A stretch of 36,298 nucleotides of DNA from Thermoleophilia bacterium. GTDB lineage: Bacteria; Actinomycetota; Thermoleophilia; Gaiellales; SKUG01. Positions 4,195 through 36,234 of this stretch are shown here, one piece after another. The translations under genes and the position numbers were made by a program. Location of the stretch: contig JAOPYV010000044.1 in NCBI GenBank assembly GCA_025964435.1, positions 1-36,298 of the forward strand, in the 5' to 3' direction. Position 1 is the stretch's first letter. Every line of letters starts with the position of its first letter. The notes under the pieces were generated by a model, which made no database searches, was not told the origin of the DNA, and worked only from the letters and a program-made list of their open reading frames with translations.

Positions 4195-4941
4195 ATGGCA
4201 TACACGCGCTCCATCCGGCCGCCCCTCCTCACGGAGTGGGAGTCGGAGCGGGTCCAGGCCTTCAAGAACCGCGACAGCCGGGCACGCTGGATGGCGGGGC
4301 GGGCACTGGCGAAGGTGCTCGTGAAGGAGCGACTGAGCCTGCCGGGCATCGTCGAGATCCGCGAGGGCGCCGACGGTGAGCCGCTCGTGTACTCCGACGG
4401 GTTCCCGATGCCGGACGTCTGGCTCGGCATCAGCGTGCGACACAACCGCATCAGCTGCGTGCTTGCCGACCGCCCGGTGGCGCTGGAGACGCGTCAGGTC
4501 CGCGCCGAGGAGGGTCATCTCGTCGACCACTTCCTCGAGCGGAGCGAGCAGCGGATCCTGCGACGCGCGCTCGGCAACGCACAGACCGTGCGCAGCGCCG
4601 GATGGGCGATCAAGGAAGCCGCGCAGCGAGCGGCGCGCATGCGTCGCACGACCGAGCTCAGGGACGTTGCACTCACCTCCGATTTCGGAGTCCACGTGGG
4701 TGACTCGACCAAGCTCGACGTGCTGGCACTCCGGGTGGTGGACGACATCGCCGTGGCGATCGTCGGCCGGTTCCTGGTCGAGGAGCGCCAGACGGTGCGC
4801 ATCGTGCTCGATGCCGCGGCACGCGAGGACGCGACGCCGCGCCTGCAGGCAGCGTTCGAGCGATCGATGGTCCGTGCGCGACGCATCGCCGACGCGCGGA
4901 TGCGCTGGCAGCCGCTGCGGCCGGACCTCAGCGAAGGCTGA
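4195..4941 (+). CDS. 4'-phosphopantetheinyl transferase-like protein (degenerate acid motif)
   Basis: This 248-residue protein has the order of elements of the Sfp/AcpS superfamily, which transfers phosphopantetheine from CoA to carrier proteins. It shows an N-terminal RARWMAGRALAKVLV helix, ISVRHN (79-84, where the family has a SxSH motif), VALETR (95-100, where the family has GxDxE) and WAIKEA (137-142, the conserved W-x-x-KEA). The expected Mg-binding Asp and Glu of GxDxE appear to be Glu and Arg here, so activity is doubtful. About 75 C-terminal residues follow without a recognisable domain. The start is uncertain: the frame is open back to 4018, but that part looks intergenic, and no good Shine-Dalgarno is visible. 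Assignment is from motif order only. Confidence 0.5.
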   Translation: MAYTRSIRPPLLTEWESERVQAFKNRDSRARWMAGRALAKVLVKERLSLPGIVEIREGADGEPLVYSDGFPMPDVWLGISVRHNRISCVLADRPVALETRQVRAEEGHLVDHFLERSEQRILRRALGNAQTVRSAGWAIKEAAQRAARMRRTTELRDVALTSDFGVHVGDSTKLDVLALRVVDDIAVAIVGRFLVEERQTVRIVLDAAAREDATPRLQAAFERSMVRARRIADARMRWQPLRPDLSEG

Positions 4942-5047
4942 TCCGCACCCAACGAGCGTTCCGCTCCGTACGCGAGCAGTGCCCAAGGATGGGCCGCGGC
5001 ATGGCCGTTGCTGCAGTACGGGGTCGGTTTTTCGACGATTCTGCGTC

Positions 5048-5076
5048 TTGACCGGGGTGGATTGCCGTCCTACCTT
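5048..5076 (+). promoter_or_regulatory. Consensus-like sigma70 promoter of the 5083 gene
   Basis: TTGACC (5048-5053) and TACCTT (5071-5076) are separated by exactly 17 nt. The -10 ends 6 nt before the ATG at 5083, and the intervening GGAGGC could also be read as a Shine-Dalgarno too close to the start. The block TACCTTGGAGGCA recurs in the promoter at 16866-16894. Confidence 0.7.
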
Positions 5077-5082
5077 GGAGGC

Positions 5083-5604
5083 ATGACCACCTTCTCCCGC
5101 GCCTCCGTCTCGAATCTCATCCCGTCATGGGAGCCCGAGCACGCCGAAGGTCCGGTCAGCGAGCCGCTCGGAACGAGCGTGGTCGAGCAGGCAGTCGCCG
5201 CACACGTGGTGGAGCAGGCGCAGGTCGTGGAGCATGCGCGTCAGCCGGAGCGGTCACCTGCGGTGCATGCGCGCAGGATCACGCCGCCGCCGACCTATGA
5301 CGTCGGTGATGTCACAGATCCAGTGCCGGTGCGCAGCAGCTTCGCCTACGACGTGCTGTCGAAGGACCCCGAGCCGATCGTCGAGCCGCTCATGGCGCTG
5401 ACGGTCGATGACGTGGACGTGTTGTCCACGCAGACGCTCGCGCGCGAGGCGCTGCGCGGTCGCATCCTGGCGTTCGCACAGCAGCGTGAGCGCCGCAGCG
5501 CCTATGAGATCGCCTTCATCCTGCTCGCAGGCGCCGTCGCCGTGCTGCTCGCCGCCCCGCCGCTCGTTCGCGTGCTGCTGGCCGCGCGTGGCATCGAGGC
5601 CTGA
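5083..5604 (+). CDS. Tail-anchored membrane protein of unknown function
   Basis: This 173-residue protein begins MTTFSRASVSNL. Residues 1-115 are acidic, proline-rich and probably disordered, with a short VVEQAVAAHVVEQAQVVEHA helix. A charged helix (118-140) leads into a single C-terminal hydrophobic segment (about 143-168), so the bulk would be cytoplasmic with a tail anchor. I do not recognise a family. The ATG at 5083 sits directly behind the promoter at 5048-5076. The stop codon overlaps the start of the SLT-M15 hydrolase by one base (TGATG), so the two are translationally coupled. That makes a role in localising or controlling the hydrolase a reasonable guess. Confidence 0.75.
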   Translation: MTTFSRASVSNLIPSWEPEHAEGPVSEPLGTSVVEQAVAAHVVEQAQVVEHARQPERSPAVHARRITPPPTYDVGDVTDPVPVRSSFAYDVLSKDPEPIVEPLMALTVDDVDVLSTQTLAREALRGRILAFAQQRERRSAYEIAFILLAGAVAVLLAAPPLVRVLLAARGIEA

Positions 5605-6635
5605 TGCGCCGACCGCGCTTCCCACACTTCCCGCGTGGCCCACGCGCCGGCGGACTGCTCGTGCTGATGGTCGCACTGGCGGCCTTCCTCGCTGCGGGTG
5701 CTCCGGGTGCACCGGGTCCGATCGCCGGCGACGTTGCGCCCTCCGAGGAGTGGCTCGACCAGCAGGCGCGCGAGCAGCTGCGCCTGGACGAGCTCGACAT
5801 CGCCACCGACACCGGCGAGGACCAGGCGCTCGTCGACAGCGTCCTCACGGGCAAGACGTCGGCAATCGCTGCCGCCAAGCCGAAGCCGCTGCGCCGGATC
5901 GACTTCCGGGCGATGGCCTACCGCGCCGCCGTCGGCGCCGGCATCAAGCGGCCCGGACTGTTCGTCCGGCAGATGGCGGCCGAGAGCGGTTTTCAGCCCT
6001 GTGCGGGCAGTCCGGCAGGTGCCATTGGCATCGCCCAGATCATGCCCGAGACGGCGCGCGGCTGGGGCGTCGATCCCTGGGTGCCCGCGGATGCGCTGCA
6101 GGCTGCCGCCAAGGCTATGGCCAAGTATGAGCGGCAGCTCGGCTCGTATCGGCTCGCGCTGGCGGCGTACAACGCGGGGACGGGCGCCGTGGCGCGTTTC
6201 GGTGGCGTGCCGCCCTATGCCGAGACGCAGGAGTACATCCGGCGCGTCATGACCATCTCCTACAAGCTGCCGGGGATGACCCAGGTCTTCGATATCCCAC
6301 AGCGGATGAAGCCCGAGTTCGCGGGTCGACTGCGCCTGCTGGCGAAGGATGTCCGCTCACGTGGCGCGACGCTCGAGGTGGAGGAGGCGTGGCGCAGCTA
6401 CGAGGACTCGATGCGGATCTGGAAGGCGGCCAAGCGCAAGCGCGGCGGCTGGAAGAACGCGAAGGTCTGGGCTGCTCCGCCCGGCTGCTCGAACCACGTG
6501 CGGGGCCTGGCTGCCGACCTCCAGGGCAACCTCGCGCTCGCCAAGCGCCTCGCACCGAAGTACGGACTCGTCTTCCCGATGGCGCACGAGCCATGGCATG
6601 TCGAGCTGGCGGGGATCCGGACCCAGTCGGGGTAG
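5604..6635 (+). CDS. Exported bifunctional peptidoglycan hydrolase: SLT lytic transglycosylase plus M15-like peptidase
   Basis: This 343-residue protein has an N-terminal signal or anchor segment (about 16-34). An SLT domain follows (about 100-225) with the catalytic Glu127 in AAESGF, GIAQIMP (142-148), AAYNAG (187-192) and YIRRVM. The C-terminal domain (about 255-335) resembles M15/VanY D,D-carboxypeptidases. It has H298 and D305 in SNHVRGLAADL and EPWH at 329-332, the expected zinc-site pattern. The SLT domain would cleave the glycan strand and the M15 domain the stem peptide. It is coupled by a one-base overlap to the tail-anchored protein upstream. I infer a wall-remodelling role; a lysis role has no phage context here. 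Confidence 0.85.
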   Translation: MRRPRFPHFPRGPRAGGLLVLMVALAAFLAAGAPGAPGPIAGDVAPSEEWLDQQAREQLRLDELDIATDTGEDQALVDSVLTGKTSAIAAAKPKPLRRIDFRAMAYRAAVGAGIKRPGLFVRQMAAESGFQPCAGSPAGAIGIAQIMPETARGWGVDPWVPADALQAAAKAMAKYERQLGSYRLALAAYNAGTGAVARFGGVPPYAETQEYIRRVMTISYKLPGMTQVFDIPQRMKPEFAGRLRLLAKDVRSRGATLEVEEAWRSYEDSMRIWKAAKRKRGGWKNAKVWAAPPGCSNHVRGLAADLQGNLALAKRLAPKYGLVFPMAHEPWHVELAGIRTQSG

Positions 6636-27359: not shown

Positions 27360-29896
27360 GCGACCTCGACTTCTCCCACAAGCCGGGCATCCCGGTGGGC
27401 GATCCGGGCACAGGTACGCCCGGTGGCGCACCGCGCGAGGAGGGCTCGCCGATGCGCAGCCCGATCGCCGACGCCGAATCCCGCCGCGGCGACGACGAGC
27501 TGGACCGCTCGCTGCGCCCGAAGAGCCTCGACGACTTCGTCGGCCAGAAGCGCGTCCGTGAGCAGCTGCAGGTCTTCATCGACGCTGCGCGGCATCGCGA
27601 CGAGGCGCTCGACCACGCGCTGTTCGCCGGCCCGCCCGGGCTCGGCAAGTGCGTCACGCCCGACACGATGGTCTTCACGACGCACGGCATGGAGCCGATC
27701 GGTGGACTCGGCGTCGTCGGTGGCGAGAGCTGGCAGCCGATCACCCGACCGATCGCCGGCCTCTACGGAACACGCACGGCCGACTACTTCTACGACAACG
27801 GTGACGGGCCGACGCTCCGGGTCACCACCCGCGCGGGCTACCGTGTCGAAGGCACGCCGAACCACCCGCTGCTGGTCAAGGGCAACGATGGACGGCTGCA
27901 GTTCCGCCGACTCGGTGAGCTCCGCTTCGGCGATGAGGTTGCAGTGCGTCTCGGCGCGCAGGTCTTCGGCTCCAACACGAAGCTGCACGTCGAAGGCGTC
28001 GGCATTCCGAGCATGCAGGACCCTGCACGCACGACTGACGAGCTCGAGCCGGACCTGGCGCGCCTGCTCGGCCTGCTGCTCGACGGTGGGCGCATCTCGC
28101 CCGGCGGCGACGGCATCGTCTTCGTCACCCGTGACGCAGTCCGCGCGGAGGAGTTCCAGGCCTGCGCCCAGTCGGCGCTGTGCCTGACGGTGGAGTCCTT
28201 CGGGTCCGGCCCGCTCGGTGAGCGCTGGGGCGCACGCAGCCCACGCGTTGCCACCTTCCTGCAGGGGCTCGGACTCACGCGCGAGGGTTTCGCCGACGTG
28301 CCCGAGTGCATCTACCGCGCGCCGCGACTGCTCGTCGCCGAGTTCCTGCGCGGCCTGTTCTGGGGCGTCGAGCATGCACCTGTCTTCAGCCACCAGGAGC
28401 GCACGGTCGTCGCGCACCTGCAGCTGATGCTCGCCAACTTCGGCATCGAGTCGAGCATCCTGCCGAGCGAGCGGGGCTGGGCCCTGCGCGCCAGCTCCGA
28501 GCCCGCGAAGTTCGATTCGATGCACCCGGACGAGTTCGGTGACATCCACGATCCCTACGCCGAGGTCGGTGGACAGCACCATCACGGCGACGAGCCCCGC
28601 GACGCTGCCGCACGATTGCGCGATCGCGAGCGCAACACGCAGCGGGCCCAGGTGTCGACGCCACTGGCCGAGACGCGCGACGGTCGCGAGGGTGGCGTCG
28701 GCTTCGGCCTGACCGCTGCCGGCGTCCTCGTCGCGATGGAGGCGGAGGAGATCGACTCCTACCGCCGCGGCGGCGCACGCGCCGACGACATCGTGCCGGT
28801 CCGGGTCGAGAACACGGGGCGGGTGCAGATCGAATCGGTCACCGTGGCCGAGGTCGAGCCGGTCGAGCGCGGTCGCGCCCTGCTGCGCGAGACCGAGCAC
28901 GACCACCGCGCGCTCGCCGTGCGAAGCGTGCGGTCCAAGCTGCGCCGGGACGAGATGGTGGAGCTTGCCTGGGAGCCGGTCGTCTCGATCGAGCCGGGCA
29001 CGGCACACACCGTCGACGTCAGCGTCCCCGACGGCCACACCTTCATCGGCAACGGCATCATCTGTCACAACACGACGCTCGCCAGCGTCGTCGCCAACGA
29101 GCTCGGCTCCACGATGCACGCCACGAGTGGGCCCGCCCTGGAGAAGAAGGCCGATGTCGCTGCCATCCTCACGGCGCTCGGGCCACACGACGTGCTGTTC
29201 ATCGACGAGATCCATCGCCTCAGCACCGCGATCGAGGAAGTCCTCTACACGGCGATGGAGGACTACCAGATCGACATCGTGCTCGGTCAGGGTCCCGCAG
29301 CGCGCACGCTGCGACTCGACCTGGAACCGTTCACGCTCGTCGGTGCCACGACCCGGGCGGGCCTGCTGACGACGCCGCTGCGCGATCGCTTCGGCATCAC
29401 CCAGCGGCTCGAGTACTACGACGTCGCCGAGCTGACCGATGTCGTGCGTCGCTCCGCGCGCCTGCTCGAGCTGGAGATCGACGACCAGTCCGCCGGCGAG
29501 ATCGCGTCTCGTTCACGTGGCACGCCACGTATCGCCAATCGCCTGCTGCGTCGGGTCCGCGACGTCGCGCAAGTGCGGCACGCCGGCCACATCACGCTCG
29601 ACATCACGCAGGAAGCGCTCGACCTCGTCGACATCGACGCCGTCGGCCTCGACCGCATCGACCGGCAGATCCTCGAGGTGATCCTCTCGAAGTTCGGTGG
29701 CGGTCCCGTCGGCCTGTCGACGCTCGCCGTCGCGATCGGCGAGGAGCAGCACACGATCGAGGATGTCTACGAGCCGTTCCTGCTGCAGCGTGGATTCCTG
29801 ATGCGCACTCCGCGTGGGCGCGTCATCACGCCGCGCGGCCGGGCGCACCTCGGGGCCGCGGGCTTCGATGTCACGACGGCCGGCGAGCTGTTCTGA
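27356..29896 (+). CDS. ruvB: RuvB Holliday junction helicase precursor containing an intein
   Basis: The 846-residue frame is RuvB interrupted by a 474-residue intein. The N-extein (1-98) holds a 50-residue disordered extension, [11 protein letters not shown] and Walker A as far as GPPGLGK. The C-extein resumes with [12 protein letters not shown], then FIDEIHR (Walker B), GATTRAG, the sensor and arginine-finger region, and the winged-helix domain ending [10 protein letters not shown]. Removing the intein restores GPPGLGKTTLA and leaves a 372-residue RuvB, the AAA+ motor that drives branch migration with RuvA. Without splicing, the ATP site is disrupted. Its start overlaps ruvA, and a strong terminator follows at 29911-29939. 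Confidence 0.97.
27650..29071 (+). other. Intein in the RuvB P-loop, with degenerate LAGLIDADG endonuclease
   Basis: The intein is 474 residues, from Cys1 ([18 protein letters not shown], block A) to Asn474. Block B is [17 protein letters not shown] with TPNH at 69-72. Block F lies at about 443-463 and block G is GNGIICHN (467-474), followed by Thr as the +1 extein residue. The splicing residues Cys1, block B Thr/His, and the terminal His-Asn are all present, so splicing is likely. The middle (about 130-290) has two LAGLIDADG-like helices, [10 protein letters not shown] (140-149) and LRGLFWGVE (233-241). The catalytic acidic position appears to be Gly and Val respectively, so the homing endonuclease is probably dead. 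A linker of about 130 residues (285-420) has no recognisable motif. Confidence 0.95.
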
Positions 29897-29910
29897 CTGA
29901 CGCATGACGA

Positions 29911-29939
29911 ACGGGGCCCGCGAACTTCGCGGGCCCCGT
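29911..29939. terminator. Bidirectional terminator between ruvB and qorB
   Basis: ACGGGGCCCGCG and CGCGGGCCCCGT form a perfect 12-bp stem around AACTT, 14 nt after the ruvB stop and 28 nt from the convergent qorB stop. There are only a few Ts downstream, but the stem stability and position make a terminator very likely. Confidence 0.85.
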
Positions 29940-29967
29940 CCTCGTTACCGTGGTGCAGCAACTCGCG

Positions 29968-30849
29968 TCAGGCGAGCTCGAGCTCCAGCTGCGCGATCGG
30001 TGCGATCAGCGCCGTACGGATCGACTGGGTCGGTCGACCGATCAGTCGGCTCAGGTCGCCACTGGTCGTATCGAGGTGACCCTTCGCCAGCCCCGCGTCC
30101 GAGTCGGCGAGGATGCTGGCGAACGCCGCGGGCAGGCCCGCGCCCTCGAGCACCTGGGCGTATTCGGCCTCGGGCAGGTCGGTGTAGACGACCTCGGTGC
30201 CGCTCACGTCCGCGATGATCTCGGCCAGCTCGGCCAGTGACACGCGCTCGTCGCCACCCAGCTCGTAGGTCGCGCCTTCGTGGTCCGCTCCGACCAGCAC
30301 CGCAGCTGCGGCTGCGGCGAAGTCATCGCGCGTCGCCGGCGCGAACTTCGTGTCGCCACCGGCACCGAAGAGGGCGCCATGCTCGAGTGCGGCACCCAGG
30401 GTTCCCTCGTAGTTCTCGATGTACCAGCCGTTGCGCAGCAACGTGAAGGCGATGCCCGACGCGCGGAGCAGCTCCTCGGTGGTTCGATGCTCGCCTGCGA
30501 GCTGCAGGTCCGATTCGTCGGCGCGCAGCACGCTGGTGTAGGCGACGTAGGGCACCTCTGCCTCGAGCGCCGCCGAGATCACGTTGCCGTGGTGCAGGGC
30601 GCGCTGGCCAACCTCGCTGGAGGAGATGAGCAGCAGGCGATCGACGCCGGTCAGCGCAGTGACGAGGGCCGACGGGTCGGTGTAGTCGGCGACGCGGACC
30701 TGCACGCCGGACGTGGCCAGTGGCGCTGCCTTGTCGACGTCGCGGACGATCGCGACGATGTCGGACGGCGCGGTGCCGCCCTCGAGCAGGTGGGCGATGA
30801 CGAGGCGGCCGAGGTTGCCGGTGGCGCCGGTGATGGCAAGACGGGTCAT
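29968..30849 (-). CDS. NmrA-like NAD(P)-binding oxidoreductase, QorB-type
   Basis: This 293-residue atypical SDR of the NmrA/HSCARG group has the N-terminal dinucleotide motif ITGATGNLGR (6-15). Next come IVRDVDKA, LLLISSSEVGQRALHHGNVISAA and FTLLRNGWYIENY, which are typical of QorB (YtfG) quinone oxidoreductases. It lacks the Tyr-x-x-x-Lys site of classical SDRs, as the group does. The likely role is NAD(P)H-dependent quinone reduction or redox sensing. The ATG at 30849 has GGAG 5 nt upstream. It is the last gene of the minus-strand cluster headed by the Atg22-like transporter but also has its own promoter (30903-30930). Confidence 0.85.
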   Translation of the reverse strand: MTRLAITGATGNLGRLVIAHLLEGGTAPSDIVAIVRDVDKAAPLATSGVQVRVADYTDPSALVTALTGVDRLLLISSSEVGQRALHHGNVISAALEAEVPYVAYTSVLRADESDLQLAGEHRTTEELLRASGIAFTLLRNGWYIENYEGTLGAALEHGALFGAGGDTKFAPATRDDFAAAAAAVLVGADHEGATYELGGDERVSLAELAEIIADVSGTEVVYTDLPEAEYAQVLEGAGLPAAFASILADSDAGLAKGHLDTTSGDLSRLIGRPTQSIRTALIAPIAQLELELA

Positions 30850-30878
30850 GAAGGCTCCAAGGTTCGTGGAATACGGTG

Positions 30879-30930
30879 CGCGCAATTCGCGCGGTTCGAT
30901 CCATGCTAGCAGATTCGATTGCGCCCGCAA
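30879..30930 (-). promoter_or_regulatory. qorB promoter with extended -10 and operator-like inverted repeat
   Basis: On the minus strand TTGCGG (30925-30930) and TGC-TAGCAT (-10 at 30903-30908, with an extended TGn) are separated by 16 nt. Just downstream of the predicted start, CGCGC-AATTC-GCGCG (30879-30893) forms an inverted repeat. This places a possible repressor site at about +3 to +17. The tetR gene immediately upstream is the obvious candidate regulator, but the repeat does not resemble the operator at 33618. Confidence 0.55.
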
Positions 30931-30934
30931 CTAT

Positions 30935-31531
30935 CTACTCGGGGGAGCCCGTCATCCACGTGCGGTGGCTGGCGAGCACGCCGTCGTACTCGCCCTGACC
31001 GACGAGGCCGCGGGTCCCGAGCGAGGCTCCCAGCAGTCCGAGCGCGATGATCGTCCACGCCTCACCGTGCGGGTCGCGGTCGGGGAGGAGCCCCCCTGCG
31101 CCGGCGCTCCGCTCGACGACGGAAGCCACATAGTCGTGCACTTCCCGCATGCGGCGCGCGAGGTGCTCGTCGATCGCCTCGATGCCCGTCGTCTCCACGA
31201 GCCCGCGCATCCACATGCGCGCCACCGAGGGTTCGCTGCGAACGATCTCCAGGAAGGACCGGCCGGGCATGCGCCAGTGGCGCGCCTCGGGCTCGAGGTC
31301 GTAGAGCTCGTCGCAGCGCACGAGCATCCGGCTCCATGCGGCGTCGACGCACTCGAGGAAGAGCTGCTGCTTCGCACCGAAGTGGCGGAAGATGAGCGCC
31401 TCGTTGACACCCGCGGTGCGCGCGAGCCAAGACGTCGTCGTCCCGGCATAGCCACGCTCCGCGAAGCAGGTCGTGGCTGCCGCGAGGATGCCGCTGCGTC
31501 GCGCGTCGGCTGACATGCGGGGACCACTCAT
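30935..31531 (-). CDS. TetR-family transcriptional regulator
   Basis: This 198-residue protein has the N-terminal TetR DNA-binding domain. ILAAATTCFAERGYAGTTTSWLARTAGVNEALIFRHFGAKQQLF spans residues 15-58, with the helix-turn-helix at about 31-53. The C-terminal ligand domain is unassigned. Its ATG overlaps the stop of the plsC-like gene (ATGA), so it is translated with the transporter and acyltransferase upstream. It probably represses that operon through the palindrome at 33618-33637, which would be autoregulation. The natural inducer is unknown; the acyltransferase neighbour hints at a lipid or acyl compound. Confidence 0.92.
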   Translation of the reverse strand: MSGPRMSADARRSGILAAATTCFAERGYAGTTTSWLARTAGVNEALIFRHFGAKQQLFLECVDAAWSRMLVRCDELYDLEPEARHWRMPGRSFLEIVRSEPSVARMWMRGLVETTGIEAIDEHLARRMREVHDYVASVVERSAGAGGLLPDRDPHGEAWTIIALGLLGASLGTRGLVGQGEYDGVLASHRTWMTGSPE

Positions 31532-32286
31532 CGCTCCACCTCGCTGACACGGAGCGCATCCTCGAGCGACGCACCGATCGGCGGACGCCCGCCTGGGCGA
31601 TGATGGATCACGCGCGCCTGCTCGAAGCAGCGCGTCACCTCGCCCCAGATCGCATCGCGTACCTCTGCGACACGCTCGCCGGAGGGCTGCTCTTCCCGGG
31701 CGAAGCTGATCGGCTCACCCCAGACAGCGGTGACCTTGGGTCGATGCTGCCACCAGCGGCGGCCATAGGCGCTCGCCCGCTTGGCGCCGTAGGCAGCGAC
31801 GGGCACGACGGGTGCCCCGGTCAACAACGCGAGGATGGCCAGGCCGTCGCGCGGCGTGGCGAGCCCGTCGTGGTCGAGTGACATGCGCCCCTCCATGAAC
31901 AGCACCAGGCCGTCGCCGCTCTCGACGACGGTGCGGGCCACGGCGAGCGCCGACGCGCTGCGCCCACCGCCGCGCAGCACGGGAAAGCCGCCGCCCCAGC
32001 GCACGAACCGACCTGCGATCGGCCACCCGAGCGCGTCCGCCTTGGCCATGAAACGCAGCCGCGTACGCGGTTGGCCGAGCCCGAAGATGAAGGGATCCAT
32101 GTACGCGCCGTGCGGCCCGGGGGCGAGCAGGAACCCGCCCTCCTCGGGAACCCGCGGCCAGTGACCGTAGCCGCGGTAGCGATAGATCATCCGGCCGGGT
32201 CGCGCCACGAGCACTCGGCAGAACCGCTGGAAGCCGGAGGGGTCGTGATGTGCCCAGTCCTCGGGTGTCAGGTGGTCGATCTTCAT
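31528..32286 (-). CDS. PlsC-type 1-acylglycerol-3-phosphate acyltransferase family protein
   Basis: This 252-residue acyltransferase has motif I HGAYMD (His59 to Asp64, the HX4D catalytic pair) and motif III LFMEGRMS (129-136, the FxEGxxS element), with the PVVPVAAYG strand further on. PlsC-family enzymes acylate lysophosphatidic acid or related lipids at the inner membrane. There is no long N-terminal membrane anchor; residues 1-50 are soluble in character. The ATG at 32286 overlaps the transporter stop (ATGA), and its own stop overlaps the tetR start. An in-frame GTG at 32304 is an alternative start. Coupling to an Atg22-like exporter suggests joint handling of a lipid-related substrate, which is inference. 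Confidence 0.88.
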   Translation of the reverse strand: MKIDHLTPEDWAHHDPSGFQRFCRVLVARPGRMIYRYRGYGHWPRVPEEGGFLLAPGPHGAYMDPFIFGLGQPRTRLRFMAKADALGWPIAGRFVRWGGGFPVLRGGGRSASALAVARTVVESGDGLVLFMEGRMSLDHDGLATPRDGLAILALLTGAPVVPVAAYGAKRASAYGRRWWQHRPKVTAVWGEPISFAREEQPSGERVAEVRDAIWGEVTRCFEQARVIHHRPGGRPPIGASLEDALRVSEVER

Positions 32287-33605
32287 GCCTCCGCCACCTG
32301 CCACTCGTCGTCCGCGAAGCGCGGCGCATCACTGAGCGGTCGAAGCATCAACAACCCGGCGATGGCGGCCAGCGCGAGCATCGCCAGTGCTACGCGGCTT
32401 GCGTCGAGCACGCTCGCGGAGCCCTGGTCATGGAGCAGCCAGATCGTGCCGCCCCACAGCACGAGCGGACCGATGCCGGAGGAGAGCTTGCCGACGAGGT
32501 TGTAGATCCCGAAGAACTCGCCGCGCAGCTCGGGCGGTGTGAGCCGCATCATGAAGACGCGGTCGCTGGTCGCGACGCCGCCGAGGGTCGCGCCGATCGC
32601 CGGACCGAGCACCCAGACGAGCGTGGGGCTGCCGGTCGCCGCCGCGATGAGCAGCGTCGTGGCAGCGAGCACGAGGATGCCGCTCAGCACGCGCTTGGGG
32701 CCGACCCGCTCGACGAGGCGACCGCAGATGAATGCAGAGAGCGCCGCACTCACCATCGCGAGGCCGAGCACGGCGGTCTTGTCGCCCTTGCTGAAGTCGC
32801 CGACACGGCCCATGTAGACGGTCATGTACGCGATCACGGTGGCTGTCGCGTCGACGTAGAGGAAGCGGGCGATGAGGAAGCGCCCGGCCGCGCGGTGGTC
32901 GGAGCGGATATGGCGGGCCGTGCGCACGACCTGCTGCAGCGCGCCGCGAACGATCGCGCCCGTGCTGGACGTGCGGGCTCGCTGCGGGCGGCGCTCGCGC
33001 ACGAAGATGAAGATCGGTACCGCGAAGACCGCGAAGAGGATCGCCGTCGGCAGGAACGCCTGCTGGAGGTCGTTCTCCGGCACGATGATCGTCAACAGGA
33101 TGCTCGCGATGAGCACGCCGACGTAGCCGAGGCCGACGCCGAAACCGGAGACCGCACCATGATGCTCGGGCGGCGCGACCGTCGCCAAGAGCGGGTCGTA
33201 CATCGAGAGCGACAGCTGGAACGCGAAGATCGCGAAGCCGGCCATCACGAGCGCGGCCGTGACGGAGGAGATCATGCCGAGGCTGACTGTGGCGAGCACG
33301 CAGAGCGTGGTGAACACGGCGAGGAAGGGCAGTCGCCGGCCGAGCTGGTCGCTGATCGCACCGAGCGCCGGCATCGCCGCGATCAGCACGAGCCCGACGA
33401 TGAACCCCATGACGCCGACGTGCCAGTCGGGTCGGCCCTGCTGGTCGATCACCCACTCGTTGAAGTAGCGGGTGATGACGGCGAAGGAGAAGATCGTGTT
33501 CGCGAAGTCGTAGAAGGCCCACGCGACGACCGGACGGCTGAAGAGGCGGAACACGCGTGGATCACGTGAAGCCGTGTCGGGGCTGGTGGCAACGGTCGTA
33601 TCCAT
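32283..33605 (-). CDS. MFS transporter of the Atg22/UMF1 family
   Basis: This 440-residue membrane protein has about 12 helices. The family hallmark WAFYDFANTIFSFAVITRYFNEW sits near the N-terminus, with SDQLGRRLPFL after helix 2 and PPELRGEFFGIYNLVGKLSSGIGP in the C-terminal half. Members resemble the yeast vacuolar amino-acid effluxer Atg22; bacterial substrates are mostly unknown. GAGGAG lies 5 nt before the ATG at 33605. It heads a four-gene cluster (transporter, plsC-like, tetR, qorB-like). The first three genes are joined by 4-nt overlaps. A strong promoter with an overlapping TetR-type palindrome lies directly upstream. Confidence 0.9.
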   Translation of the reverse strand: MDTTVATSPDTASRDPRVFRLFSRPVVAWAFYDFANTIFSFAVITRYFNEWVIDQQGRPDWHVGVMGFIVGLVLIAAMPALGAISDQLGRRLPFLAVFTTLCVLATVSLGMISSVTAALVMAGFAIFAFQLSLSMYDPLLATVAPPEHHGAVSGFGVGLGYVGVLIASILLTIIVPENDLQQAFLPTAILFAVFAVPIFIFVRERRPQRARTSSTGAIVRGALQQVVRTARHIRSDHRAAGRFLIARFLYVDATATVIAYMTVYMGRVGDFSKGDKTAVLGLAMVSAALSAFICGRLVERVGPKRVLSGILVLAATTLLIAAATGSPTLVWVLGPAIGATLGGVATSDRVFMMRLTPPELRGEFFGIYNLVGKLSSGIGPLVLWGGTIWLLHDQGSASVLDASRVALAMLALAAIAGLLMLRPLSDAPRFADDEWQVAEA

Positions 33606-33617
33606 GCGCGCTCCTCG

Positions 33618-33637
33618 AAGTAAGTATGCACTTACTT
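33618..33637. promoter_or_regulatory. TetR-type operator palindrome
   Basis: AAGTAAGT and ACTTACTT are perfect 8-bp inverted arms around ATGC. It is the most AT-rich stretch nearby and overlaps half of the -10 box and the predicted transcription start of the transporter operon. The size and half-site pattern are typical of TetR-family operators, and a tetR gene is in the operon. Confidence 0.75.
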
Positions 33638-33663
33638 ATAGCTGGACCCGCCCATCGACACAA
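33635..33663 (-). promoter_or_regulatory. Promoter of the transporter-plsC-tetR operon
   Basis: On the minus strand TTGTGT (33658-33663) and TATAAG (33635-33640) are separated by exactly 17 nt. The predicted start lies about 7 nt further on, inside the palindrome at 33618-33637. The leader is short and carries a GAGGAG Shine-Dalgarno. Confidence 0.75.
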
Positions 33664-33696
33664 GGGCTTCATGCGCGGGATCGGTACGATTCCTCC

Positions 33697-34803
33697 GTGA
33701 CCCTTCCTGCGCCCCTCACCACCGATGACCTCGACTACGAGCTGCCCGACGCGCGGATCGCGCAGCAGCCGGCGTCCGAGCGCGGCGGCTCCCGCCTGAT
33801 GGTGCTGCAGGCCGGGGTGGAGGAGCCGTTGGCGATCGGTCGCTTCGACGAGCTGTTCCTCGACCAGCTGCAGGCCGACGACCTCGTCGTGGCCAACGAT
33901 TCCCGCGTGCTCCATGCGCGCCTGCCGATCCGCCGCGACACGGGCGGTCGCGGCGAGGTGCTCCTGCTCGCACCTGTCGCCGATGCCGCCGATGGCGCGC
34001 CCGGTCGGTGCCGCTGGACCGCGATGGCGCGCCCCGCTCGCAAGTACCGCGAGGACCAGGTCGTGACCACCGAGGCGGGCGCGGCGTCGCTGACGATGGT
34101 CGAGCGCACCGGCTCGCAGACCTGGACCGTCGAGCTGCCCTGCGCGCTCGACGAGGTGCCGGCCTGGCTGCAGCTCCACGGCGAGCTGCCACTGCCGCCA
34201 TACGTCACCGAGCGCGGGCAGGACGAGGGCCGCTACCAGACGGTCCACGCACGCCACGACGGCTCCGTCGCGGCGCCGACCGCCGGCCTGCACTTCAGCG
34301 ACGAGCTCTGGGCGCAGGTGCGCGAGCGCTGCGAGGTCGCCCACGTCACGCTTCACGTCGGCGCGGGAACCTTCCTGCCGGTCAGCGATGGCTCGCTCGA
34401 CGAGCACGTCATGCACCACGAGCGCTACGAGGTGCCGCCGCAGACAGACGCCGCAGTCCGTCGAGCGCTGGCCGAGGGCCGCCGCGTGGTTGCCATCGGC
34501 ACGACGTCGACCCGCACCCTCGAGCACGTCTACGGCGCGGGCGGCGAGCTCGTCGGCAGCACGGACCTGTTCATCCAGCCCGGCTACACGTGGGCCTGCG
34601 TCGGCGCGATGCTGACCAACTTCCACCTGCCCAAGTCGACGCTCGTCGCGCTCGTCATGGCCTTCCATGGAATCGACGCGACGCGCGCGGCCTACGCCCG
34701 AGCGATCGCGGAAGAGCTGCGCTTCTACTCCTTCGGTGACGCCATGTTCCTGCACGGCCCGCCGGTCGCCTCGAGTGGCGACACGGATGTCGCCGTCACC
34801 TGA
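33697..34803 (+). CDS. queA: tRNA preQ1(34) S-adenosylmethionine ribosyltransferase-isomerase
   Basis: This 368-residue enzyme transfers and isomerises the ribosyl moiety of S-adenosylmethionine onto preQ1 in tRNA, giving epoxyqueuosine. Landmarks are LDYELPDARIAQQPASERGGSRLM at the N-terminus, LVVANDSRVLHARL, AAPTAGLHFS, HVTLHVGAGTFLPV and NFHLPKSTLVALV. Length is near the family norm of about 350. The start is a GTG at 33697, with TACGAT (33685-33690) ending 6 nt before it and no Shine-Dalgarno, so a leaderless message is likely. tgt, the enzyme acting one step earlier, follows after a 219-nt gap that contains the stem-loop repeats. Confidence 0.96.
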   Translation: MTLPAPLTTDDLDYELPDARIAQQPASERGGSRLMVLQAGVEEPLAIGRFDELFLDQLQADDLVVANDSRVLHARLPIRRDTGGRGEVLLLAPVADAADGAPGRCRWTAMARPARKYREDQVVTTEAGAASLTMVERTGSQTWTVELPCALDEVPAWLQLHGELPLPPYVTERGQDEGRYQTVHARHDGSVAAPTAGLHFSDELWAQVRERCEVAHVTLHVGAGTFLPVSDGSLDEHVMHHERYEVPPQTDAAVRRALAEGRRVVAIGTTSTRTLEHVYGAGGELVGSTDLFIQPGYTWACVGAMLTNFHLPKSTLVALVMAFHGIDATRAAYARAIAEELRFYSFGDAMFLHGPPVASSGDTDVAVT

Positions 34804-34831
34804 AGACCGGGCATCGGGAACGTCAAGCTCG

Positions 34832-36234
<1,403 letters not shown>

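Follow-up and report, generated by a model that had tools for sequence, protein, structure and literature searches.

A predicted TetR operator with a shifted half-site at the promoter of a transporter-acyltransferase operon in a Thermoleophilia bacterium

Results and discussion

Genes and promoter at the locus

The window, that is, the whole 36,298-nucleotide stretch of contig JAOPYV010000044.1 (assembly GCA_025964435.1) analysed here, has a G+C content of 69%. Three overlapping genes lie on its minus strand. The first encodes an MFS transporter of 440 aa (32283-33605; Pfam MFS_1 6e-30, ATG22 1e-24), and the second a plsC-type acyltransferase (31528-32286; PF01553, 48.8 bits, cut-off 23) with the HX4D motif GPHGAYMD. 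The third encodes a TetR-family regulator of 198 aa (30935-31531; PF00440, 59 bits, cut-off 24), whose recognition helix reads NEALIFRHF (residues 43-51). An earlier note on this DNA had named tetR as the third gene of the operon, and this was borne out by its 4-bp overlap with plsC. With its start placed at the ATG at 32286, plsC in turn shares 4 bp with the MFS gene. This start was chosen by comparison with loci L032 and L033 of the two nearest named relatives, both Thermoleophilia MAGs; the longest reading frame starts at a GTG at 32304. Locus L032 has an identical pair of 4-bp overlaps at the two junctions. An NmrA-like NAD(P)-binding protein is encoded 85 bp behind tetR (29968-30849, minus strand). 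It was considered as a possible fourth member of the operon and rejected, having no match in L032 or L033.

The promoter before the MFS gene is present with the letters claimed in the earlier note. It consists of a -35 element TTGTGT (33658-33663) and a -10 element TATAAG (33635-33640), both on the minus strand, and a ribosome-binding site GAGGAG (33611-33616), read from the sequence, follows 5 nt before the MFS ATG (33605). The -35 and -10 elements read TTGCGC and TATATG in L032, and TTGCGC and TATAAG in L033, with a 17-bp spacer in all three genomes. Because both elements and the spacer recur in the two relatives, the promoter at 33635-33663 is likely real. Its description as strong was an overstatement: only 8 of 12 positions match the consensus, the -10 element lacks the final T, and a scan of 29700-34000 at 9 of 12 positions found no promoter. 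Judged from the -10 element, transcription would start at about 33628.

On the plus strand, queA (33697-34803) diverges from the operon and is accompanied by tgt. A putative leaderless promoter of its own was seen by eye at 33685-33699: the element TACGAT (33685-33690), 6 bp and then the GTG start, clear of the palindrome described below. Similar elements stand just before queA in the relatives G001 (TATGAT) and L033 (TAGGAT), also by eye. Between queA and tgt, two copies of a 34-bp repeat lie 60 bp apart (34831-34924). This repeat family has 25 matches at up to three mismatches on 19 contigs of the same genome (reversed control, 0), and pairs spaced 60-61 bp apart were found on six contigs.

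A palindrome over the promoter

A perfect inverted repeat, AAGTAAGT-ATGC-ACTTACTT, occupies 33618-33637 and is not assigned to either strand. Its arms of 8 bp are separated by a 4-bp spacer, and its conserved core, GTAAGTNNNNACTTAC (33620-33635), is kept in genus relatives. From its letters and conservation, it is predicted to be a TetR operator. In the window, L032 and L033 alike, the core follows the first -10 base at a distance of 5 bp. The palindrome thus overlaps the promoter, with the letters that the earlier note had given. That note had also put the -10 element and the start site inside the palindrome. The expected start does fall there, at the centre, but the -10 element is covered only in its AAG half.

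Perfect inverted repeats with 8-bp arms are not rare in the window (32 with spacers of 0-10, nested ones counted separately). Of these, only the one at 33618-33637 has 6 or more A/T in each arm, and no repeat of such A/T content was found in 100 dinucleotide shuffles of the window. The shorter form TAAGN6CTTA occurs in the window only at 33621.

The search for further genomic copies that had been proposed as a check was run. In the own genome (3.2 Mb, 88% complete), the palindrome was the single match when up to three of its 16 specified bases were allowed to differ; its reversed control gave one match at this threshold and no exact one. The 12-base core matched exactly once and, with one mismatch, at one more position (contig C38), a number equalled by the control. 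With one copy in its own genome, the regulator looks local there. A second exact target was not found in this genome; G002, a relative, does have one.

Conservation within the genus

Four genus members were compared: the own genome, G001, G002 (locus L033 = G002:C13) and G003 (locus L032 = G003:C159). Gene order in L032 and L033 is as in the window, with queA, MFS (71-73%), plsC (69-71%) and tetR (68-69%), and both have GTAAGTNNNNACTTAC before the MFS gene at the same promoter position. In one of them, queA and the MFS gene are separated by an extra ORF of 284 aa (L032:1086-1940); in L033 and G001 the two genes are close together.

At the same place, G001 has queA, MFS (64%) and plsC (60%). 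No TetR match was detected behind these genes in a 9-kb stretch, and a search of the whole G001 genome at up to one mismatch found no palindrome core. This genome is 81% complete, but its queA-MFS-plsC locus lies on one continuous contig. Palindrome and tetR are therefore both present in three of the four genus members and both absent from the fourth. The TAAG form of the site was found at an MFS-plsC-tetR operon in these three genomes only.

Related regulators in a second family

Homologues of the window TetR were searched at E ≤ 1e-20 in 61 related genomes, and then in 399 genomes sampled from the class. Across both sets, matches were restricted to the genus of the window and to one further family of the same order (f4). 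The f4 proteins share 29-42% identity with the window TetR and are encoded directly behind a different MFS gene. Fifty of the 51 f4 places were analysed; G300, whose match lies right at a contig's start, was left out. Seven of the 50 were excluded from the analysis of upstream sites, five for want of an MFS start or upstream DNA (L112, L114, L118, L129, L134) and two with no match to the MFS of the relatives (L106, L110). L113, in which 48 MFS residues matched close to tetR, was kept. The 43 remaining loci have an MFS gene of ~478 aa before tetR, with Pfam MFS_1 in the two tested; by its length, we take this transporter to be DHA2-like.

All 43 loci have a related site 17-63 nt before the estimated MFS start, with 0-3 mismatches to GTTAGTNNNNACTAAC. 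The upstream base counts took in L106 as well and hence have 44 rows. The form TAG[TC]N4[AG]CTA had 76 matches in the 237,447 bases of the 43 loci, every one of them in the part scanned ahead of the transporter gene. In 31 of the 43 (among L040-L056 and L103-L135), two copies stand exactly 15 bp from each other. Upstream sequence was available for 45 f4 loci; L106 and L110 were the two among them in which the scanned stretch contained no convincing site. Eight whole genomes were searched for the paired array. Four of them (G002, G003, G050, G053) have it, in each case confined to the place linked to TetR, and it is missing from G000, G001, G054 and G060, which have no second TetR match or none at all at 1e-20. 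The reversed control gave 0 matches. No -35/-10 pair at a consistent position was common to the f4 loci; a candidate was present in 20 of 43, at scattered positions.

The f4 operons resemble that of the window in that tetR stands directly behind an MFS gene, a palindrome precedes the MFS start and the half-sites are related. They differ in the MFS itself, in having no plsC, in the TAG..CTA code with its tandem units (31/43) and in the helix [ST]EPxxYRHF. The window operon falls outside the f4 type: it has no ~478-aa MFS partner, and TAG[TC]N4[AG]CTA was not found anywhere in the window. A tblastn search of L040-L056 at 1e-6 with the 440-aa MFS of the window found nothing.

Recognition helix and operator form

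The recognition helix reads [ST]EPxxYRHF in all 50 f4 TetRs and NEAL(I/V)FRH(F/Y) in all three TetRs of the window type. Positions 43, 45 and 48 differ consistently between the two types, and the consensus half-sites are one base pair apart (GTAAGT in the window type vs GTTAGT in f4). Both types meet in two genomes. G002 and G003 each also encode a TetR relative with the helix TEPVLYHHF, which groups inside the f4 clade in the tree. The ORF in front of this relative is preceded by three TAG..CTA units at 15-bp steps and not by TAAG..CTTA, the form found with the window-type TetR of the same two genomes. These relatives lie at L096:17019-18556 and L097:3552-5162. The front ORF encodes 272 aa without a Pfam match in L096, and its start in L097 is tentative.

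In an alignment by hand, A45 and F48 of the window TetR correspond to Pro39 and Tyr42 of TetR. Pro39 and Tyr42 touch DNA bases, and Gln38, Pro39 and Thr40 are described as important for specificity, according to the relevant part of PMC7102968. Since 6 of 15 outgroup TetRs also carry an SEPxxY helix, the NEALxF helix looks derived. The split between the outgroups and the window TetR plus f4 had weak support (72/22). A second tree left out L134 for its long branch, and the protein of outgroup locus L025 was too short. The joint change of helix and operator is a correlation only, as it represents a single evolutionary change on the tree. From these sequences, we infer that the helix changes may have caused the change of operator.

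The predicted model of the window TetR (mean pLDDT 81) has nine helices. It aligned with 2g3b_A over 187 of 198 residues (Z 19.7, rmsd 2.8), and as modelled the protein has the all-helical TetR fold across the whole chain. The nearest solved structures single out no ligand: FadR (acyl-CoA), LuxR/SmcR, QacR and others lie within ~3 Z of the best, and families absent from this list may still be relevant to the ligand. The position of the palindrome in the promoter of the regulator's own operon, as judged from sequence and conservation, is what would be expected of a TetR-family protein.

Comparison with published operators

TetR autoregulation of a transporter operon is of a known kind, and the circuit itself is textbook. 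In mycobacteria, BkaR (Rv2506/MSMEG_4718) is likewise an autoregulatory TetR-family protein with a 16-bp palindrome in which a 4-bp spacer separates two 6-bp halves, as given in the part of PMC3920632 concerned. Its half-sites GTTA-/-TAAC, from the same source, are very close to the f4 form. The BkaR core GTTA(N)T(N4)A(N)TAAC was not matched in the window, where the core GTAAGTATGCACTTAC has GTAA/TTAC and half-sites GTAAGT/ACTTAC. BkaR also differs in that the same source has it controlling branched-chain keto-acid genes; the neighbours in the window are MFS, plsC, NmrA-like and queA genes.

Among the literature matches listed, which mostly lie outside the subscription literature, there was no published account of this operator. 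Three sources in which the operator letters turned up were rejected. The excerpt of PMC4538802 deals with PmeR/TtgR operators of another architecture. In the excerpt of PMC4424350 the letters belong to a primer, and the MbdR operator given there, ATACN10GTAT, also has another architecture; the excerpt of PMC11980582 has them in primers. The part of PMC11970672 (TimR) that was covered gives no operator.

Proposed mechanism and alternatives

The palindrome is very probably the operator of the operon's own TetR, in a case of classical negative autoregulation with a shifted operator code. A TetR dimer bound at 33618-33637 would lie over the expected start and the second half of the -10 element, a position from which repressors usually block transcription, and would thereby keep RNA polymerase off the promoter. 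A ligand would release TetR, and the MFS transporter, the acyltransferase and the repressor would be made; with tetR the last of the overlapping genes, release would raise all three together. Falling ligand would restore repression. The operator code would be of a kind shared with the f4 relatives, which use TAG[TC]N4[AG]CTA, often in two copies 15 bp apart. The genus of the window would have a single TAAGTN4ACTTA site and the NEAL(I/V)F helix in place of [ST]EPxxY. The self-control proposed in the earlier note is thus well supported by sequence comparison: site and tetR occur together in three genus members and are both missing from the fourth, and a related site precedes the transporter gene of the f4 relatives in all 43 loci where the start of that gene is visible.

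Another TetR-family protein of the genome might instead bind the site, with the operon's TetR acting elsewhere. Six further matches to the window TetR at E ≤ 0.001 are found in the own genome, and one operator architecture can be common to distinct TetR proteins, as the BkaR core illustrates (PMC3920632, in part). However, the presence or absence of the site tracks the operon's own tetR in four genomes, and the site is the sole copy in its genome. The related f4 sites, too, stand before an MFS gene that adjoins its own tetR (43/43), and the TEPVLY-helix relative in G002 and G003 has the other type of site, so that we give this explanation very little credence. Slightly less improbable, and still poorly favoured, is that TetR is an activator or that the site also controls the divergent queA. 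Activators do exist in the TetR family (NCBIfam lists FasR as one), and queA is divergent at a distance of 60 bp. Against this, the overlap with the -10 element and expected start of the MFS promoter is a blocking position, and the putative queA -10 element (TACGAT, 33685-33690) is ~47 bp from the site. G001 also has a similar element before queA with no palindrome, as seen by eye.

The position of the palindrome at the start of the message, adjoining the ribosome-binding site, could suggest a function in RNA, as a leader hairpin or terminator. Because the expected start is in the palindrome centre, the transcript would hold one arm only. The terminator scan had no match at the palindrome, and most of the related f4 sites repeat a 12-bp unit at 15-bp steps and do not resemble a single hairpin. 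A role in RNA is thus scarcely credible, and an operator for the operon's own TetR remains the preferred reading.

Possible function of the transporter and the acyltransferase

The MFS gene and plsC are adjacent in all four genus members. As read from the translations, PlsC has the HX4D motif in all four and the EGR motif in three, with EGH in L032. The window PlsC weakly matches the PlsC part of the acyl-ACP-phospholipid acyltransferase PRK08633, and a Pfam search found no acyl-ACP synthetase domain in it. A widely conserved MFS-plsC pair was considered and rejected: MFS homologues in G004, G059 and G060 had no plsC match within the stretch examined. The window MFS was likewise rejected as an LplT (NCBIfam NF008397), not being among the three matches in its genome, all of which were under the cut-off. 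The only solved MFS relative found was weak (6s7v, E 0.00095).

To our knowledge, there is no tetR in the E. coli lplT-aas operon. LplT-Aas, the lysophospholipid flippase-acyltransferase pair of E. coli, likewise combines an MFS protein with a co-encoded acyltransferase, and its authors leave room for further lysophospholipid transporters (PMC11416262, in the section concerned). The window pair differs from it in both partners, as the MFS misses the LplT model and PlsC is without the synthetase domain. As a pair, the transporter and the acyltransferase probably act on a membrane lipid or some other hydrophobic molecule, to which the evidence points weakly; that they recycle lysolipids is a guess.

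The second exact copy of GTAAGTNNNNACTTAC in G002 (L096:4749-4764) stands before a DUF3419 gene (4784-5959), and a TTGACC-16-TACTAT promoter immediately precedes this copy. We presume this gene to be BtaA-like (a betaine-lipid enzyme). The DUF3419 gene of G003 (79%) lies close behind the previous gene and has no site at up to three mismatches in the stretch examined; G000 and G001 do not have the gene. A lipid regulon is therefore suggested by one case only.

Significance

A broader scenario can be offered tentatively, and we regard it as rather doubtful. In it, the operator code was rewired, with [ST]EPxxY giving way to NEAL(I/V)F, the TTAG half-site to TAAG and the 15-bp tandem array being lost, which would avoid cross-talk with the TetR relative in G002 and G003. 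The lineage would have been redeployed from exporters to a membrane-lipid circuit, in which a non-LplT transporter and an acyltransferase recycle lysophospholipids, joined in G002 by the DUF3419 gene.

The lysolipid side is a weak lead to a possible recycling pair outside LplT-Aas. The part worth following is the difference in operator code between related TetRs within one genome. A computational study of the divergence of duplicated repressors and operators exists (PMC1464816, of which a part was considered). The locus may add a compact natural case of repressor and operator changing together, in which both of the related TetR groups coexist in G002 and in G003. A limited number of helix and operator exchanges would be enough to test how related repressors remain insulated from each other, and the sites described provide candidate operators for a TetR-transporter family in Thermoleophilia.
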